This document shows, piece after piece, positions 11,627 through 30,078 of a stretch of DNA of 43,631 nt; positions within the stretch are counted from its first letter, which is position 1, and every line of letters begins with the position of its first letter. The stretch is from contig CAMCVW010000029.1 of NCBI GenBank assembly GCA_945881915.1, positions 1 to 43,631 of the forward strand, read 5' to 3'. Under the pieces are notes generated by a model that worked only from the letters and a program-made list of their open reading frames with translations, was not told the DNA's origin and searched no databases. The DNA is from Thermoflexus hugenholtzii JAD2. Its GTDB lineage: Bacteria > Chloroflexota > Chloroflexia > Chloroflexales > Roseiflexaceae. The position numbers were made by a program, and so were the translations under genes.

Positions 11627-11843
11627 CGAAAAACATTGTTTTTGATAGCAGAATCAAAAAGAAAAATGGAGCAGCGTATTGCCCCTTACGGGTGATGCAT
11701 GTCAACATTTCCCTGCTTCATGTGTTTGTCTATGGATGTTTCGTACCGAAGCAACGAAAAAACACTGCACGCACATGTCTTTTTGTATCTGTCTTGTCGT
11801 ATGCGTGATGTTTTTCTGTATCGAACAAAAGAGAGTGAATCTC

Positions 11844-12626
11844 ATGAACATGCTCCCAGGATTGGCAGCGAGCCAATACGCATTGATCTACAACGTGTTG
11901 AGTTTCACGATTGCATCAATGCTTTCGTCCTTTGTGTTCTTCTTGGCAGCCCGCCAGCAGGTCGGCGTTGCGTATCGCCCCGCATTGCTCTTCTCGGCCC
12001 TGGTGGTCGGAATCGCTGGGTATCACTATTTGCGCATCTTCGACAGTTTTAACGATGCATACACGTTGGTCGATGGGGCATATGCACCGAGCGGCAAGCC
12101 ATTCAATGACGCATACCGCTACGTCGACTGGTTGCTGACTGTTCCTCTTTTGTTGGTCGAATTGGTCGCAGTGTTGCACCTGTCAAAGGCTGTCGGCCGG
12201 AGCATGTTGATCAAGCTCATCATCGCTGCAGTCTTGATGATTGGACTCGGCTACCCTGGCGAAGCAGAGTACACCAACATGACGATGCGCGCCGTCTGGG
12301 GCACGCTGAGCAGCATTCCGTTTGTATACATTTTGTATGTACTCTGGGTGCAACTCGGGGCACAGGTCAAAAACGAAAGTGCCGCGGTACAAAGCCTGCT
12401 CAAGACCACGCGCGTTGTCCTCTTGGCTACCTGGGGCGTCTACCCGATTACCTTTCTGTTGCCGATCCTCGGCATTGGGATGGAAACGTCCTTTGTTGCC
12501 GTGCAATCCGGGTATGCGTTCGCCGATGTCGCAGCCAAGTGTGGCTATGGCTTGCTGATTTTCTTCATCGCTCGTGCCAAGAGCGAAGCAGACGGCAGTT
12601 TGCCACAGGATAAAGCACACGCCTAA
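11844..12626 (+). CDS. Light-driven proton-pump rhodopsin, xanthorhodopsin-like
   Basis: 260 aa from the ATG at 11844, chosen because the first helix starts right after it and GAGAG lies 8 bp upstream; 55 further upstream codons look non-coding. Seven membrane segments. Helix C reads R-Y-V-D95-W-L-L-T99-V-P...E106, the D-T-E set of proton pumps (acceptor, Thr, donor). Helix G has D228-V-A-A-K232, the retinal Schiff-base lysine with its second counterion. H61 in G-Y-H-Y is the conserved His near the acceptor. Leu at 103, three before the donor, matches green-tuned proteorhodopsin. Aligning helix E by V-Y-x-x-Y-x-L-W puts Gly153 where proteorhodopsin has a bulky Phe and xanthorhodopsin has the Gly that admits a carotenoid antenna. 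No carotenoid or retinal synthesis genes are in this window. Confidence 0.93.
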   Translation: MNMLPGLAASQYALIYNVLSFTIASMLSSFVFFLAARQQVGVAYRPALLFSALVVGIAGYHYLRIFDSFNDAYTLVDGAYAPSGKPFNDAYRYVDWLLTVPLLLVELVAVLHLSKAVGRSMLIKLIIAAVLMIGLGYPGEAEYTNMTMRAVWGTLSSIPFVYILYVLWVQLGAQVKNESAAVQSLLKTTRVVLLATWGVYPITFLLPILGIGMETSFVAVQSGYAFADVAAKCGYGLLIFFIARAKSEADGSLPQDKAHA

Positions 12627-23957: not shown

Positions 23958-24045
23958 GCCGGGCTCCTTTGCGCGGGTTCGGGTTTGGGTGTACGTATTT
24001 TAGCATGCAAAAATATGTACAAGACGGTGGAGGGGAGCGTGTGCC

Positions 24046-24083
24046 TTTTGAGCGGGGCTTATTGCAATAAGCCCCGCTCAAAA
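24046..24083. terminator. Perfect 38-bp palindrome, likely bidirectional terminator
   Basis: TTTTGAGCGGGGCTTATTG is followed directly by its exact reverse complement, giving 19-bp arms with no spacer. Run-off T tracts occur on both sides, as expected of a two-way terminator. It shields the dioxygenase promoter from the repeat region. Confidence 0.7.
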
Positions 24084-24134
24084 AAGATGCAGTGCCTGTA
24101 CGCCCCGCGACACAGCACCGATCTGGGTTCCTGC

Positions 24135-24239
24135 CATTCCATGGTCATACAGAAGCTGATGATGCTGCGGAAAACTTCCGTAATGGCATTGACGCACCGC
24201 GTCAGTGCCAATGGAATCGTGTGCAAGATGCAGAATCAC
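24135..24239. repeat. Repeat family A, copy 1 (~105 bp)
   Basis: Near-identical to 24489-24592. Within it, CGGAA-AAC-TTCCG (24168-24180) and TGACGC-ACC-GCGTCA (24190-24204) form perfect hairpins; the second is extended by GGCA/TGCC. ATTCCAT near the start pairs with ATGGAAT near the end, so the unit could fold as a closed multi-arm structure. Confidence 0.8.
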
Positions 24240-24389
24240 TGTGTGGATGGGGTGCAGTTCATCTGAGATGCAGTCATGTGAGCACCTTGTAGTTGTTGGC
24301 ATGCTGCAACGTTGGGCGGGCAGGGGCGAGGTACACCTCGCCCGCAGAAAAACCACGAGGCATGCCATGACGGTGGGGGGAGCGTGTGC
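24230..24389. repeat. Repeat family B, copy 1 (160 bp)
   Basis: Near-identical to 24718-24877. Contains the hairpin GGGCGAGGT-AC-ACCTCGCCC (24324-24343) and the motif GGCATGCCATGACGG, which also occurs near 24467 and, with one change, near 24682. Copy 1 overlaps the end of repeat A copy 1. Confidence 0.85.
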
Positions 24390-24401
24390 AGGATGGAGTG
24401 C

Positions 24402-24451
24402 CTGTACGCCCCGTGACACAACAACTGAAACCTGAAAACTACGCACTGATA
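24402..24451. repeat. Repeat family C, copy 1 (copy 2 at 24890-24939)
   Basis: Fifty bases starting CTGTACGCCCCG and ending CACTGATA are repeated at 24890-24939 with a few differences. The first 19 bases also occur at 24096-24114. In both full copies C lies downstream of B, so B and C may be one composite unit. Confidence 0.75.
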
Positions 24452-24488
24452 CCTGTATCGAGTCGGCATGCCATGACGGTGTCCCCGT

Positions 24489-24592
24489 CATTCCATGGTC
24501 ATACAATAGCTTATGATGCTGCGGAAAACTTCCGTCATGGCATTGACGCACCGCGTCAGTGCCAATGGAATCGTCTGCAAGATGGAGAATCA
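24489..24592. repeat. Repeat family A, copy 2
   Basis: Matches copy 1 at nearly all positions, with both internal hairpins kept exactly. Differences are scattered single bases. Confidence 0.8.
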
Positions 24593-24717
24593 AAGCGTAT
24601 CTGAGATGCAGCGATGTAAGCATCTTATACACGATGGCATGCCGACGACGAACAATTGCGATACGACAACGCCGACAGTCTGCATGCCATGACGGCAGGG
24701 GGGAGCGTGTGCCGCAT

Positions 24718-24877
24718 GCAGAATCACTGTGTGGATGGGGTGCAGTTCATCTGAGATGTGGTCATGTGAGCATCTTGTACTTGTTGGCATGCCACAACGT
24801 TGGGCGGGCAGGGGCGAGGTACACCTCGCCCGCAGAAAAACCACGAGGCATGCCATGACGGTGGGGGGAGCGTGTGC
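24718..24877. repeat. Repeat family B, copy 2
   Basis: Same 160-bp length as copy 1 with only a few single-base differences, the hairpin included. Confidence 0.85.
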
Positions 24878-25023
24878 CGCATGCAATAACTGTACGCCCC
24901 GCGACACAACAACTGAAACCTGAAAACTACTCACTGATAACTACTAACTACAATCCTGCATCCACCAAGATGCCATAATACGTATGTACAGAGAGAAGAT
25001 TTTTGAAAAGCAGAACACACGCA

Positions 25024-25875
25024 ATGGACGACACATCAATTCGCCGCCAAAATCAACGTTCTTGGGACGCAGTGGTCCCTGCGCATGTGAGTCATCACCA
25101 CGACGTGCCTGGGTTTCTGCGCAGTGGCGGGAGTTCACTCTTCCCCGAAGAAGTAGCATTGTTGGGCGACATTCGCGGGCGAAGAATTGTCCATCTGATG
25201 TGTAACGCCGGGCTTGATACCTTGAGCCTGGCGAATCTCGGTGCAATTGTGTGTGGGGTTGACATTAGTCAGAGTGCGATTGTGCAGGCACGCCAGTGGG
25301 CTGCCGAAAGCAGTATTGATGCACGATTCGTCCAGGCCGATGTCTATGATTGGCTTGCGACAACTGACCAGCAATTTGATGCGGTGTACTGCTCATACGG
25401 TGCCATCTGTTGGTTAAACGATGTACAGGAATGGGCGCAGGGAGTAGCGCGCGTCTTGGCTCCGGGCGGGCGCTTTGTATTGATGGAATTCCACCCCACG
25501 TCGAATATGTTTTCTCCCGATTGGCAACTGGAGCGTGATTATCCGCACGCGGGTCGTCTGCGCACACTCGCGGGTATCGATGATTACGTCGCAGATTCGG
25601 GCGGAGGGTTGACTCCGTCGGGGTATCATACCGGCGTGAGTGGGTTTGTGAACACGGAACCATGCCATTTGTTTGAGTGGAGCGTTGGTGAAGTCGTCAC
25701 TGCGCTGGCAGCAGCAGGATTGGTCATCGAACGGCTCGAAGAGTACTGTTTCAGTAATGGTGAGCGACCGTTCCGCAATATGGTCGCCACAACCGGGCGC
25801 CGTCAAGTAGCTCCGCCACACATTCCGCAGTTCCCCATGCTCTATGGAATAGCAGCGCTGAAAAAAGGGACATGA
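25024..25875 (+). CDS. Class I SAM-dependent methyltransferase (cluster gene 1)
   Basis: 283 aa from the ATG at 25024; a TTG at 25003 with GAGAGAAG upstream would add seven residues and is a fair alternative. Rossmann-like fold: motif I is H-L-M-C-N-A-G-L-D-T, with Asn/Ala-Gly in place of G-x-G; then V-C-G-V-D-I-S and F-D-A-V-Y-C-S-Y-G. The acceptor is unknown. The stop is 1 bp before the ATG of folB, so it is the first gene of the six-gene operon and probably methylates the pathway product or an intermediate (inferred). Confidence 0.8.
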   Translation: MDDTSIRRQNQRSWDAVVPAHVSHHHDVPGFLRSGGSSLFPEEVALLGDIRGRRIVHLMCNAGLDTLSLANLGAIVCGVDISQSAIVQARQWAAESSIDARFVQADVYDWLATTDQQFDAVYCSYGAICWLNDVQEWAQGVARVLAPGGRFVLMEFHPTSNMFSPDWQLERDYPHAGRLRTLAGIDDYVADSGGGLTPSGYHTGVSGFVNTEPCHLFEWSVGEVVTALAAAGLVIERLEEYCFSNGERPFRNMVATTGRRQVAPPHIPQFPMLYGIAALKKGT

Positions 25876-25876
25876 C

Positions 25877-26239
25877 ATGGATCGCATCATCCTCGAAGGA
25901 ATGCAATTTTTTGGATATCACGGCACACGTCCCGAGGAACGCACCCTCGGACAACGGTTCGAAGTCGATGTATCCGTGGGACTCGATTTACAACCAGCAG
26001 GCAGCGCGGATGACCTCCAATACGGCGTCGATTATGCGCGTTTCCATGCCATAGCACAGTCAGTGGTCGAGGGCCCGCCGCTGCAGTTAACCGAGGCAGT
26101 CGCGGAACGGATTGCACAACAGATTCTGGCCGCCGAAGCGTCGATAGCGTGGGTGCAAGTCAAAGTCACCAAACCCTTTGTGCGGTTGGGGAGCACGGTG
26201 CTCAAAGGCTCGACGATCGTCATTAAACGACGCAGATGA
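25877..26239 (+). CDS. folB: Dihydroneopterin aldolase-family protein (cluster gene 2)
   Basis: 120 aa, full length for FolB. The N-terminal strand leads to F-F-G-Y-H-G-T-R-P-E-E-R, the conserved Y-H-G-x-x-x-x-E start. The fold ends in V-K-V-T-K-P, carrying the conserved lysine that interacts with the pterin ring. FolB cleaves or epimerises 7,8-dihydroneopterin; here it need not serve folate, since no folE, folK or folP lies nearby. It overlaps the next gene by 4 bp (ATGA). Confidence 0.85.
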   Translation: MDRIILEGMQFFGYHGTRPEERTLGQRFEVDVSVGLDLQPAGSADDLQYGVDYARFHAIAQSVVEGPPLQLTEAVAERIAQQILAAEASIAWVQVKVTKPFVRLGSTVLKGSTIVIKRRR

Positions 26240-26901
26240 TGCGCCCGCTCGTCACCCTCGCATATGCCCAAACCCTGGATGGGTACATCGCTGCGCGCGA
26301 CGGCAGCTCGCGCTGGATTAGTGGTGCAGCGTCACTCCAGCGTACGCATGCCCTCCGTGCGCGTCACGATGCGATTTTGGTGGGAGTGGGGACGGTTGTG
26401 GCGGACAACCCCCGCCTGACGGTGCGCTTAGTCGACGGGGTTAACCCGATACGCGTCGTTGTCGACAGTAACTTGCGTATTCCTGATGCGGCACATGTCT
26501 TGAATGAAGAATTGGCGACAGGCACATGGATTGTCTGTAAGTCAGACGCTGATGCCCAACGCCGTCAGCATTTGCTGCAGTGCGGGGCAGTGGTTCTATC
26601 GACTGCAACAGATGCGCAGTCAGGTGGAGTCGACCTGGCGGTGGCACTCCAACTCCTCGCCGAACGCGGCATCCGCACCGTCATGATCGAGGGTGGGAGC
26701 CGGTTGATTACCAGCATGCTGCGCGCACGACTCATCGACCGCGTGGCGATTACGATAGCACCCAAAATTTTGGGCGAAGGAATTCACGCCTTTGGAACGA
26801 TTGGAGTTACGACGATGTCCAACGCGCTGACGTTCAGTGCGGTAGAGACGCAACGCGTCGGCGACGATATCTGGATGGAAGGCGAGGTGTGTTATCGCTG
26901 A
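26236..26901 (+). CDS. RibD C-terminal reductase-domain protein (cluster gene 3)
   Basis: 221 aa, only the reductase half of RibD; there is no deaminase domain. Typical landmarks are S-L/Y-A-Q-T-L-D-G-Y-I-A, R-A-R-H-D-A-I-L-V-G-V-G-T-V-V-A-D-N-P, the NADPH segment and E-G-G-S-R-L-I-T. Such proteins reduce ribosylaminopyrimidines (riboflavin route) or, like DHFR, pterins. The start overlaps folB by 4 bp. With FolB and a PTPS-like protein, a reductase acting on a pterin or its pyrimidine precursor is the simplest reading. Confidence 0.85.
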   Translation: MMRPLVTLAYAQTLDGYIAARDGSSRWISGAASLQRTHALRARHDAILVGVGTVVADNPRLTVRLVDGVNPIRVVVDSNLRIPDAAHVLNEELATGTWIVCKSDADAQRRQHLLQCGAVVLSTATDAQSGGVDLAVALQLLAERGIRTVMIEGGSRLITSMLRARLIDRVAITIAPKILGEGIHAFGTIGVTTMSNALTFSAVETQRVGDDIWMEGEVCYR

Positions 26902-26917
26902 TATTTCGGCACTCTGG

Positions 26918-27922
26918 ATGGTGGCACCGTACCAGGTGCGCATTCAGGCAGAATCACCCAAACCACTGCGCCCCGACGAGGTCGCGCTATCTGCGCGTTA
27001 TTCGGCAATCAGTCACGGCACCGAAATGCTGGTGTACCGCGGCCAGGTTTCAGACGGGATGAACCTGGATCTGCCCACCTTCGAAGGAAGCTTTGCATTC
27101 CCGATTAAATACGGGTACGCGGTCGTGGGTACGGTGACAGCGGTGGGCAGCGCAGTTTCAGGGATGACTGTAGGTGATTCCGTTTTTGCGTTACACCCCC
27201 ATCAAACGCGCTGTCATGTGCAGCAATCATTGGTCCACAAAATCCCAGCAACGGTACCGCTCAAAGCAGCAGTTTTGGCAGCCAACATGGAAACAGCCAT
27301 CAACATCGTGCACGACACGCGACCTGCCCTCGGTGATGTGGTCGTAGTGATTGGCTTGGGTGTGGTTGGCTTGCTGGTGGCGTGGTTGTTGTCGCGACAA
27401 TCGGTGCAAGTCATCGCGGTGGACCCTGCAACGCATCGGCGTGCGTGTGCCCGCCAGCTCGGTGTCCAGACCGTCGTACATCCGGACGAGGCACCGCAAT
27501 GCGTCCGTACCCAGAGTCTTCAGCGCGGTGCGGATTGCGTCATCGAGGTCAGCGGCAATCCACAGGCATTACCGATGGCGCTCGACGTCGTTGGCCAAGA
27601 AGGGCTCATCGTCGTGGCGTCGTGGTATGGCAACAAACCAGTCACGCTCGATTTGGGGAGCAGATTTCATCGTGGCAGAGTGCGGATGCGGTCTTCGCAA
27701 GTGGGGCAGCTGGCACCAGATTTAGCGCCACGATGGGATTATCAGCGGCGTATGTCTGTCGTGTGGGAAATTCTCGCTCAGTTTCCCTTTCAGACGGTCA
27801 TTACCCACGAATACCGTTTTCTCGATGCAGCCATTGCATATCAAGACATCGATCAACAGCTGGTACCGATGATTCAAACGGTATTGGCGTACGAGCACAC
27901 GCAAGGAGACGAACATGTTTGA
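26918..27922 (+). CDS. Medium-chain dehydrogenase lacking the zinc-site Cys (cluster gene 4)
   Basis: 334 aa; ATG 26918 without a clear ribosome site. The N-terminal catalytic domain has A-I-S-H-G-T-E where zinc alcohol dehydrogenases have Cys, and no Cys-rich structural zinc lobe is present. The Rossmann motif is V-I-G-L-G-V-V-G-L-L. This 'S-x-I-S-x-G-T-E' subfamily includes BchC-like dehydrogenases. It probably oxidises a side-chain hydroxyl with NAD(P); the substrate is unknown. It overlaps the PTPS-like gene by 8 bp. Confidence 0.82.
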   Translation: MVAPYQVRIQAESPKPLRPDEVALSARYSAISHGTEMLVYRGQVSDGMNLDLPTFEGSFAFPIKYGYAVVGTVTAVGSAVSGMTVGDSVFALHPHQTRCHVQQSLVHKIPATVPLKAAVLAANMETAINIVHDTRPALGDVVVVIGLGVVGLLVAWLLSRQSVQVIAVDPATHRRACARQLGVQTVVHPDEAPQCVRTQSLQRGADCVIEVSGNPQALPMALDVVGQEGLIVVASWYGNKPVTLDLGSRFHRGRVRMRSSQVGQLAPDLAPRWDYQRRMSVVWEILAQFPFQTVITHEYRFLDAAIAYQDIDQQLVPMIQTVLAYEHTQGDEHV

Positions 27923-28295
27923 AGTCGGGGTTGTGACGCAATTCGAAGCGGCTCATCGCCTGGTTGGGGACTTTGGTCCCGCCCAGCGGTTCCATGGACA
28001 CACCTATCGCGTCGAAGCAACGGTCTATGGCAACACCCTCAAAGCTGATGGGACGTTGTTCGACATCGTCCTGCTGCAAAACGCACTCGCTGCGGTCATC
28101 GGCCAGCTGCACTATCAGAATCTCGATGAAATTGCCGGACTCAATACGCGGAACACGACTGCGGAGGTCGTTGCAGAGTATATCTGGCTCCAGGTCGCTC
28201 CCGCATTACTCCAGACAGGGTTGGTCACATTACGCATTGCCGTCTGGGAATCACCCGGTGCGTGGGCCGGTGTGACGCGTGCGTTGCCGCAATGA
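27915..28295 (+). CDS. 6-pyruvoyl-tetrahydropterin synthase/QueD-like protein, Cys-less (cluster gene 5)
   Basis: 126 aa; ATG with AAGGAGACG inside the end of the preceding gene. The three zinc His are present: F-E-A-A-H14-R and H27-G-H29-T-Y. The catalytic Cys that QueD and PTPS place four residues before the H-G-H is Ala23 (P-A-Q-R-F-H-G-H); it is not the Glu of folate-type PTPS-III either. Also kept are the D-G-T-L-F-D-I turn, L-D-E-I, N-T-T-A-E and the W-E-S-P glutamate. So it should bind a pterin-like substrate but may do different chemistry. Overlaps the GT gene by 4 bp. Confidence 0.85.
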   Translation: MFEVGVVTQFEAAHRLVGDFGPAQRFHGHTYRVEATVYGNTLKADGTLFDIVLLQNALAAVIGQLHYQNLDEIAGLNTRNTTAEVVAEYIWLQVAPALLQTGLVTLRIAVWESPGAWAGVTRALPQ

Positions 28296-29302
28296 ACGTG
28301 GCAATGCTGACGGTCGGGGATGTAACACGACAGACCGGAGGCTACCTCTACCATGCACGGGTATATCCGCTGTTGTCTGCAATGGGAATCCATATCCACG
28401 AAGTGGTGCTCTCGGCTGCTGATGTCGTCTCGCAGCGGGAAGCCTCAATGACCTTCGAACCGGGTGACTACACCGTAATCATGGTCGATGCATTGGCGCG
28501 AACAGCAGTTGCCCCATACATCGATACCTGGCGTCAGACCTGTCCAGTCGTCGCAATGGTGCATGAGTTGCCATCTGAGGCGACAGGCGTCGATGCAGCA
28601 GACGAGGCACCGTTGTTGCGTGCCGATATGCTGATTGTGGTGAGCCCAGATGGGCGCGAACGATTACGGAATCGTGGCGTAGCCGATGAGCGCATCATCA
28701 TTGCTCCCCCCGGTTGCGATCGGCTCGGTGTGCCCCCGCTACGGCAGGTTGTACAGCCGGCGCAGGTATTGTGTGTAGCGCAGTGGATTCCCCGCAAAGG
28801 GCTCGACACGTTGATTTCGGCGTGGGGGCACTCCCATTGCCCCGGCGCAGTGTTACACCTGTATGGGGAGCGTGATGCAGATTACGCGTACACGGCACAA
28901 ATCGACGCCATGATTGCAGCGGCACGGCAGAATGGGGCGCAGATTGCCGTACACGGCAGCGTACCCGATGCGCGGATTATCGACGCATACCAACAGGCAA
29001 CGCTGTTTGTCCTGCCTTCACGCTTCGAGGGTTATGGGATGGTTTTTGCCGAAGCACTCTGGGCCGGGTTGCCCGTACTCGCCTGCGACACAGGTCCCGT
29101 CGCTGCAGTCGTCGGCACGGGTGGGGTGCTCGTACCGGTCGATGATGCCCATGCGTTGGCCGTGCAATTGCATCGCTACTTACACGATGCAGACGCATGG
29201 CGTGATTTGGCGAACCATGCAGCACAGCGCGGACAAAAGCTGCCGCGCTGGCAAGACACTACCGATTGCTGGTACCAGGTGTTGCAGCGCGTCACTCGCT
29301 AG
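28292..29302 (+). CDS. GT4-family glycosyltransferase (cluster gene 6)
   Basis: 336 aa from the ATG at 28292, which overlaps the PTPS stop (ATGA). GT-B fold: an acceptor-side N-terminal domain with G-G-Y-L-Y-H, and a donor-side domain with V-A-Q-W-I-P-R-K-G (~165), G-S-V-P-D and the E-x7-E motif in S-R-F-E-G-Y-G-M-V-F-A-E-A (~250). It uses a nucleotide sugar. Its place at the end of a pterin-type operon suggests glycosylation of the pathway product, as known for pteridine glycosides of cyanobacteria and green sulfur bacteria (inference by analogy). Confidence 0.88.
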   Translation: MNVAMLTVGDVTRQTGGYLYHARVYPLLSAMGIHIHEVVLSAADVVSQREASMTFEPGDYTVIMVDALARTAVAPYIDTWRQTCPVVAMVHELPSEATGVDAADEAPLLRADMLIVVSPDGRERLRNRGVADERIIIAPPGCDRLGVPPLRQVVQPAQVLCVAQWIPRKGLDTLISAWGHSHCPGAVLHLYGERDADYAYTAQIDAMIAAARQNGAQIAVHGSVPDARIIDAYQQATLFVLPSRFEGYGMVFAEALWAGLPVLACDTGPVAAVVGTGGVLVPVDDAHALAVQLHRYLHDADAWRDLANHAAQRGQKLPRWQDTTDCWYQVLQRVTR

Positions 29303-29430
29303 CAACGGTCCCAGCTGATCACAGCTGCGCTATCACCGGACGAAAACCGGTAACACGTCGGTGCGACGCACGTGATTCGATGGTCCGGGAGCACGCGGAA
29401 TTGCACATTGAGTGATGAATAGGCATAAAA

Positions 29431-29458
29431 AACGCGCACGAAATGCTTCGTGCGCGTT
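29431..29458 (-). terminator. Terminator of the ribA gene (possibly two-way)
   Basis: AACGCGCACGAA pairs perfectly with TTCGTGCGCGTT across a 4-nt loop. On the minus strand a T-run follows (TTTTTTA), 23 bp past the ribA stop. It also lies downstream of the convergent GT gene. Confidence 0.85.
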
Positions 29459-29481
29459 CGAGTGCCAATCAGCGCGTGTTG

Positions 29482-30078
29482 TTATGGGTTGACACGGTCG
29501 TTATCAAAGTCAAGTAGGTGACCCATGCGGTGTTTTTTGGTGACGAGATACTCGTGATTGACCACGTTTGAGGCTATTTGAATGGATTCTCTGCTCACCA
29601 CGTGGATGCCGTGGCTTTCGAGGGCACCGATTTTGGTGGGATTATTCGTCAGCACCCGCACCTGCGTGACCCCAAGCGCGTGCAGCATCTGTACCGCGAT
29701 GGTGTAATCACGCATATCATCGGGTAAGCCGAGCGCGCGATTGGCATCGACCGTATCGAGTCCGGTTTCTTGCAATGCGTACGCTTTTATTTTGTTGATG
29801 AGCCCGATGCCACGGCCCTCCTGGCGCAGGTAGAGCAAAACGCCGCAACCATCGTCTTGGATGCGTTGCAGTGCAGCATCGAGCTGTTCTCCACAGTCAC
29901 ATTTGGCCGAACCGAAGGTGTCACCGGTCAGACATTCCGAGTGCAACCGAATCAGTGGCGCAGTATGGGCGATATCCCCGACCCACAGTGCGACATTGTC
30001 GCCTACGTAGACTGCCATGTGAAAAACACCGTAGCGCGTCGGGAGTGTTGTTTGGGCGAGCGGTTGTATCACTTCCAA
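29482..30078 (-). CDS. ribA: GTP cyclohydrolase II
   Basis: 198 aa from a TTG at 30078 that has GGAGG about 6-7 bp upstream; a GTG at 30072 is an alternative. Only the cyclohydrolase domain, with no fused DHBP synthase. The zinc site is C-L-T-G-D-T-F-G-S-A-K-C-D-C-G, and the active-site stretch L-Y-L-R-Q-E-G-R-G-I-G-L has the catalytic Tyr. GTP is opened to a 2,5-diaminopyrimidine with loss of formate. The gene converges on the pterin-like operon and could feed it, or supply riboflavin; other rib genes are not in the window. Confidence 0.9.
   Translation of the reverse strand: MEVIQPLAQTTLPTRYGVFHMAVYVGDNVALWVGDIAHTAPLIRLHSECLTGDTFGSAKCDCGEQLDAALQRIQDDGCGVLLYLRQEGRGIGLINKIKAYALQETGLDTVDANRALGLPDDMRDYTIAVQMLHALGVTQVRVLTNNPTKIGALESHGIHVVSRESIQIASNVVNHEYLVTKKHRMGHLLDFDNDRVNP

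Follow-up and report, generated by a model that had tools for sequence, protein, structure and literature searches.

What might be made by six tightly packed genes of pterin type in a genome without GTP cyclohydrolase I? The question is raised by a locus of Thermoflexus hugenholtzii JAD2 (GTDB family Roseiflexaceae, phylum Chloroflexota), on contig CAMCVW010000029.1 of assembly GCA_945881915.1. The window analyzed here is that entire contig, 43,631 nucleotides long; the genome is 3.09 Mb in size and 98.6% complete. The six genes are packed on the plus strand in the segment 25024–29302, where neighbors overlap by 4–8 bp or are separated by gaps of 1–16 bp, and a gene for GTP cyclohydrolase II (GCHII) is convergent with them. 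A preliminary description, made from the sequence alone, had read the set as one pathway to a methylated, glycosylated pterin-like compound. We consider it probable that a widespread cassette, typified by SCO6650 of Streptomyces coelicolor, is represented here in its Chloroflexota version and that it leads from GTP, through GCHII, to a glycosylated and methylated 2-amino-4-oxo-pyrimidine or pteridine.

Conservation of the Gene Cluster

A profile of the PTPS-like protein, P0005, was run against one genome per species, with the FGPAxRxHG motif as one of two fetch patterns, and at least 583 relatives were confirmed. The nearest named relatives of P0005 among the matches listed are from Roseiflexaceae. 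Neighborhoods were analyzed by ORF clustering and tblastn on the best 80 of these at least 583 loci. In the 53 loci with full flanks, the PTPS-like gene is accompanied by a medium-chain dehydrogenase (MDR) gene in 50, a GT4 glycosyltransferase gene in 51, and, within 6 kb, a RibD_C reductase gene in 49. The arrangement is as follows. The MDR gene is upstream of the PTPS-like gene, on the same strand and at most 500 bp away, in 67 of 77 loci, and the GT4 gene is downstream, within the same limits, in 70 of 74. The order of the window, MDR-PTPS-GT4 with RibD_C, is identical to that of other loci, and RibD_C-MDR-PTPS-GT4, mostly with a convergent GCHII gene, is repeated within the window genome’s genus and order. 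The loci span Chloroflexota, Thermomicrobiota, Actinomycetota, Pseudomonadota, Gemmatimonadota, and Myxococcota. Since the arrangement is repeated in other genera, families, and phyla, it is not due to chance.

The neighborhood search that the preliminary description had called for was thus positive, and the synteny kept across phyla supports its claim of a single pathway. Its expectation that all six genes would co-occur is borne out in the Chloroflexota-type version only; across all versions, just the RibD_C, MDR, PTPS-like, and GT4 genes are near-universal. This four-gene core marks the whole cluster family, whose members come from hundreds of bacterial species and no fewer than six phyla. 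The distances among the four core proteins correlate (r 0.66–0.91, 61 loci), and none of 500 permutations gave as high a value. The correlation reflects co-inheritance and says nothing about function.

Other genes recur beside the core. A methyltransferase from one of two families is present in 43 of the 53 loci and a CDP-alcohol phosphatidyltransferase in 32; sulfatase-superfamily, flippase-like LPG_synthase_TM, creatininase, FkbM methyltransferase, and YceI genes are found in many loci. About 31 of 400 Chloroflexota genomes have the SCO6650-type family (at least 120 bits), and QueD-like matches, at 94 bits or less, are clearly apart. A scan of viral contigs with the MDR protein gave no match. 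In several lineages, the cluster is on a large plasmid (pAt of Agrobacterium tumefaciens, L170; pOB3b1 of Methylosinus trichosporium, L169; p1 of Streptomyces fungicidicus, L171), which indicates horizontal spread. In Streptomyces anthocyanicus (L168, 9001–9911), a PTPS-like gene adjoins a MEKHLA-domain gene, and no other annotated gene of the cluster accompanies it.

The PTPS-like Protein

P0005 (27915–28295, plus strand) is the only COG0720 protein of the genome. Its AlphaFold model is a confident T-fold (pLDDT 96.5), and its best solved match, both by sequence and by fold, is SCO6650 (PDB 3d7j; 39–40% identity, TM 0.91). The FGPAxRxHG motif, with Ala at the position of the catalytic Cys, is present in all 82 aligned sequences, including P0005 (Ala23) and SCO6650. 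In P0005, the catalytic Asp-His pair is replaced by His66 and Tyr67, with His14, His27, His29, and the pterin-anchoring Glu112 retained. Thus, P0005 shares the T-fold, the zinc histidines, and the pterin-binding Glu with QueD and with PTPS-I, -II, and -III but lacks the catalytic Cys and Asp-His by which those enzymes are recognized, and it is not to be read as a PTPS or a QueD. The earlier PTPS/QueD-like label holds for the T-fold family and fails for the catalytic residues. The database records examined call the gene product a 6-carboxytetrahydropterin (QueD) or pyruvoyl-pterin synthase.

SCO6650, in a paper of 2008, was reportedly found to have no zinc, no catalytic triad, and no PTPS activity. 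It resembles P0005 in the signature motif, sequence, and fold, and its family matches the product-less gene sets of actinobacteria that the preliminary description had tentatively mentioned. A Streptomyces plasmid carries a relative that is 92% identical to SCO6650, in a cluster that resembles that of the window, with the order MDR-PTPS-GT4-methyltransferase-flippase-like plus creatininase and GCHII genes. Unlike the window, the stretch read has no FolB or RibD_C gene.

Probable Entry through GTP Cyclohydrolase II

GTP cyclohydrolase I (PF01227, PF02649) and FolK (PF01288) gave no match in the window’s genus (11 genomes, G000–G010). Control genomes score for all three models, and several genomes of the same order score for the IA form and for FolK. 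Therefore, the T-fold proteins of this genus cannot be fed by FolE, and the entry to the pathway must be GCHII. The preliminary description had also started from GTP by way of GCHII, in agreement with this result, and had pointed out that no folE or folK is nearby. The absence proves stronger than that, being genome- and genus-wide. A further observation is that the whole genus, having no FolE, FolE2, or FolK, is apparently unable to make folate de novo, unlike several genomes of the same order.

The GCHII of the window, P0007 (29482–30078, minus strand), is a monofunctional enzyme (PF00925, 208 bits) encoded 180 bp downstream of the six-gene operon. Its closest PDB entry is 2bz0, E. coli RibA. 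Tyr100 of P0007 corresponds to E. coli Tyr105, which we take to be the mark of a GCHII that forms 2,5-diamino-6-(5-phosphoribosylamino)pyrimidin-4-one (DARPP), and P0007 is accordingly predicted to be of the DARPP-forming type. It is the only GCHII of the genome, and the riboflavin operon found elsewhere (RibD-RibE-RibB-RibH) has no RibA; hence P0007 would have to serve both riboflavin synthesis and the pathway of the cluster. In Chloroflexota, Actinomycetota, Pseudomonadota, and Gemmatimonadota, GCHII genes adjoin the cluster or form part of it. A Chloroflexus-type genome, G032, has a housekeeping RibBA and a second GCHII, the latter in a separate operon with MFS and acyltransferase genes. 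Since genes of these two kinds adjoin the cluster itself in Chloroploca, Oscillochloris, and Rubrobacter, the second copy supports GCHII as a dedicated member of the pathway.

The Other Enzymes of the Operon

All seven genes are intact and real, and Pfam and NCBIfam models confirm their families, in line with the set of six genes and a convergent GCHII first described. The operon begins with P0001 (25024–25875), a class I S-adenosylmethionine-dependent methyltransferase (Pfam Methyltransf_11/25), whose stop codon is 1 bp from the ATG at 25877 of P0002 (25877–26239). P0002 is a FolB-like dihydroneopterin aldolase/epimerase (PF02152, 103.7 bits; above the TIGR00525 cut-off) and the only FolB of the genome. 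It keeps Glu21, Tyr53, Glu73, and Lys99, as do all 11 cluster FolBs; the catalytic roles of these residues are presumably those of the S. aureus enzyme. FolB is found in eight of nine relatives with the PTPS-like gene versus none of 16 others (p 8e-6).

P0003 (26236–26901), which overlaps P0002 by 4 bp (26236–26239), is a stand-alone RibD_C reductase of the Rib7 type with no deaminase domain (PF01872, 182.7 bits). Its best PDB match is 6p8c, a 2,5-diamino-6-ribosylamino-4(3H)-pyrimidinone 5′-phosphate reductase. The structure of yeast RIB7 has shown that Lys at one position favors a 2-oxo substrate and Thr a 2-amino substrate, with Asn found there in archaea (PMC3631187). P0003 has Ala at this position, Lys151 of BsRibG, together with the catalytic Asp and Glu, as is typical of Rib7-type sequences. 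In the readable cluster RibD_Cs, which also keep Asp and Glu, the residue at this position is Ala, Ser, Cys, Gln, or His and never Lys; the full-length housekeeping RibDs of related genomes, including the window genome’s own, have Lys. The lack of the 2-oxo-specific Lys in P0003 fits what is expected of a 2-amino, pterin-type pathway. A GCHII-RibD_C fusion in a Mycobacterium metagenome-assembled genome (L084, 9077–10432), encoded some 7.5 kb away from the PTPS-like gene, has no deaminase domain and has the 2-oxo-type Lys; it is probably a housekeeping enzyme.

P0004 (26918–27922), 16 bp after the P0003 stop codon at 26901, is a zinc-less MDR (ADH_zinc_N) related to polyol and threonine dehydrogenases and to BchC, with a BchC model score of 63 bits that is below the cut-off. 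Its homologs point to a slightly earlier start than the ATG at 26918. The zinc ligands are replaced throughout the family: Ser stands at the position of ADH Cys46 in 72 of 72 relatives and Tyr at that of His67 in 73 of 73 (Ser40 and Tyr75 in P0004), so the original wording, a Cys-less MDR, was right. P0004 overlaps P0005 by 8 bp, and P0005 in turn overlaps by 4 bp the last gene, P0006 (28292–29302), a GT4 glycosyltransferase (Glycos_transf_1). The EX7E pair of the latter is conserved, with Glu246 in 77 of 77 and Glu254 in 76 of 77 relatives. The intact GT4 and methyltransferase families are consistent with the glycosylated and methylated product first suggested. Intermediates of pterin or pyrimidine type, as first proposed, are supported too, and the suggested reduced pterin with an oxidized side chain is a putative structure for the product. 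The PDB matches of the MDR and the methyltransferase are too general for naming a substrate.

Two Versions of the Cluster

In the 82-row alignment, the zinc site reads HGA in 66 non-Chloroflexota rows and HGH in all 16 rows from Chloroflexota, Rubrobacter, and Thermomicrobiales, the window included. The 66 HGA rows form one supported branch of the tree, whose deep forks are unsure because the alignment has few columns. SCO6650 has HGA, having lost the third zinc His, whereas P0005 keeps HGH; the window therefore falls in a distinct zinc-type branch, differing from SCO6650 in that respect.

FolB follows this division, being limited to the HGH group (11 loci; p 4e-10 when counted by loci, which are not independent). 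Within the group it is not universal: genome G036 has no FolB between the methyltransferase and RibD_C genes. The P0001-type methyltransferase is found in nine Chloroflexota/Rubrobacter-type loci, the window among them. Outside Chloroflexota, Rubrobacter, and Thermomicrobiales, neither FolB nor this methyltransferase occurs, and the methyltransferase slot is taken by another family. The full six-gene set is thus the mark of one version, the Chloroflexota type.

GCHII is a further point of difference, being Met-type in the Streptomyces cluster and Tyr-type in the window. In Streptomyces, the Met-type GCHII, with Met at the position of Tyr105, adjoins a creatininase-family gene in 21 of 21 cases versus none of nine for the Tyr-type housekeeping copies. 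According to a study of 2006, the Met-type enzyme reportedly stops at a formylated product; SCO6655, an unusual GCHII encoded in the neighborhood of SCO6650, is reported to make that product. Archaeal ArfB is a creatininase-family protein that removes the formyl group. Deformylation by the Streptomyces creatininase would therefore give the same 2-amino intermediate, matching the archaeal two-step route. The early riboflavin route of archaea and fungi (cyclohydrolase, ArfB, Rib7-type reductase) is alike in reducing a 2-amino intermediate before any deamination and in having, as in the Streptomyces cluster, a creatininase-family partner for a formyl-retaining cyclohydrolase. In contrast to that route, the cluster of the window has no deaminase, lumazine, or flavin steps.

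Proposed Pathway and Alternatives

Beyond the family assignments, we infer every step of the following proposal. GCHII would convert GTP to DARPP. P0003 would reduce the ribosyl to a ribityl chain on this 2-amino substrate, and the zinc-less MDR would oxidize a hydroxyl of the chain to a ketone. Jointly, we suggest, these two reactions would replace the Amadori rearrangement carried out by cyclohydrolase I. The PTPS-like protein, with a pterin-anchoring Glu and no PTPS catalytic residues, may bind the product and aid closure to a dihydropterin. FolB, with its catalytic residues intact, would trim or epimerize the side chain in the Chloroflexota-type lineage, and GT4 and the methyltransferase would decorate the product. 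A reductase-dehydrogenase substitute for the Amadori step accounts for all the core genes, although no result singles that scheme out.

Several points weigh against this proposal. The order and chemistry of the MDR, PTPS-like, and FolB steps are inferential, and a dihydropterin ring is as plausible a target of the reductase as the ribosyl chain. FolB and the zinc-type PTPS are absent from the larger, non-Chloroflexota branch, and the chemistry of the two versions may differ. In many loci, e.g., that of Variovorax, no GCHII gene is near the cluster, which would then depend on the housekeeping enzyme. A constant pairing of creatininase with a formamidopyrimidine (FAPy)-type GCHII holds in Streptomyces but fails in Halomonas and relatives, where creatininase occurs with a Tyr-type GCHII. 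Moreover, the Streptomyces creatininase scores below the cut-offs of both the MftE and the ArfB models and is nearer to the former; with so weak a match to ArfB, its role is a putative one.

A product that is not a pterin is possible, though on the unlikely side. It would then be an uncyclized or differently cyclized 2-amino-6-ribitylaminopyrimidine derivative, that is, a pyrimidine or 6,7-substituted 8-ribityl pteridine glycoside; the PTPS-like protein would only bind the ring, and the MDR would oxidize ring or side chain after ring formation. A ribityl chain made by RibD_C cannot cyclize by the Amadori route, the catalytic Cys is gone from all 82 PTPS-like sequences along with the Asp-His pair of P0005, and FolB is missing outside the Chloroflexota-type branch. 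Against this, the Chloroflexota version comes with a FolB whose catalytic residues are intact, and neither a lumazine synthase nor a DHBP synthase family is recurrent among the neighbor families identified. It is improbable that GCHII and RibD_C feed a glycosylated flavin as a supply branch for riboflavin or a flavin analog. P0007, as the sole GCHII, must indeed serve riboflavin too, but the riboflavin operon already has full-length RibD, RibE, RibB, and RibH, and the cluster RibD_Cs have neither the 2-oxo-specific Lys nor a deaminase domain; for the window genome, we reject a flavin product on these grounds.

Two more familiar destinations, folate and biopterin, are each very hard to credit. 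FolB and the PTPS-like protein might form a PTPS-III-type folate bypass with the other genes incidental, since P0002 is above the folB equivalog cut-off and, in some bacteria, PTPS-III can replace FolB (PMC5041015). However, FolE, FolE2, and FolK (HPPK), the marks of de novo folate synthesis, are missing from all 11 genomes of the genus; P0005 has Ala23 and no PTPS-III Glu motif; relatives with FolE and FolK carry FolB only alongside the cluster; and MDR and GT4 remain part of the set from phylum to phylum. Queuosine is likewise rejected for the window genome, given the residues lost from P0005, and the early judgment that neither folate nor queuosine explains the set is upheld. As for a tetrahydrobiopterin-like (cyanopterin-like) cofactor of aromatic amino acid hydroxylases, a PTPS-fold protein, a dehydrogenase, and a glycosyltransferase also occur together in the synthesis of cyanobacterial pteridine glycosides, which are made with GTP cyclohydrolase I, PTPS-II, sepiapterin reductase, and a pteridine glycosyltransferase. 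The proposed pathway is alike in leading from GTP to a glycosylated pterin with a PTPS-fold protein, but the window has neither GTP cyclohydrolase I nor a catalytic PTPS, RibD_C and the zinc-less MDR replace sepiapterin reductase, and the transferase is a GT4. The genus also has no Biopterin_H hydroxylase, and biopterin is contradicted for the window genome.

Returning to the cassette from GTP to a decorated pyrimidine or pteridine, it is tempting to propose a route to pterins independent of GTP cyclohydrolase I, where the Amadori step is replaced by the joint action of a Rib7-type reductase and a zinc-less MDR and a catalytically stripped PTPS homolog closes the ring, giving a glycosylated pteridine of general importance. 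We regard this wider proposal as rather doubtful. Such a product would probably be membrane-associated in most phyla because of the CDP-alcohol phosphatidyltransferase and flippase-like partners or, in some Chloroflexota, the acyltransferase.

No published description of the cluster or its product was found in literature that excluded most subscription papers, which is no proof that there is none. All the enzymes are from known families, and SCO6650 has been crystallized. If the proposal is true, a widely distributed small molecule is missing from the charts of bacterial metabolism, cyclohydrolase I is dispensable for making pterins, and a pathway can be assigned to two orphan proteins, SCO6650 and SCO6655. 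Across Chloroflexota, Actinomycetota, Pseudomonadota, Gemmatimonadota, Myxococcota, and Thermomicrobiota, hundreds of species have kept the genes of the set together.

Surroundings of the Operon

Scans for promoter and terminator consensus sequences gave no excess over shuffled sequence. Directly upstream of the operon is a repeat-rich intergenic block (24020–24942) with two copies of a 242-nt unit (92% identity), two copies of a 131-nt unit (87%), and shorter repeats bearing GCATGCC. Farther upstream is a bacteriorhodopsin-like gene (11679–12623), followed within 6 kb by amine oxidoreductase, LPG_synthase_TM, ABC1-kinase, and UbiA prenyltransferase genes. At the start of the window, the segment 46–2919 encodes an RCC1-repeat (beta-propeller) protein of 958 amino acid residues.

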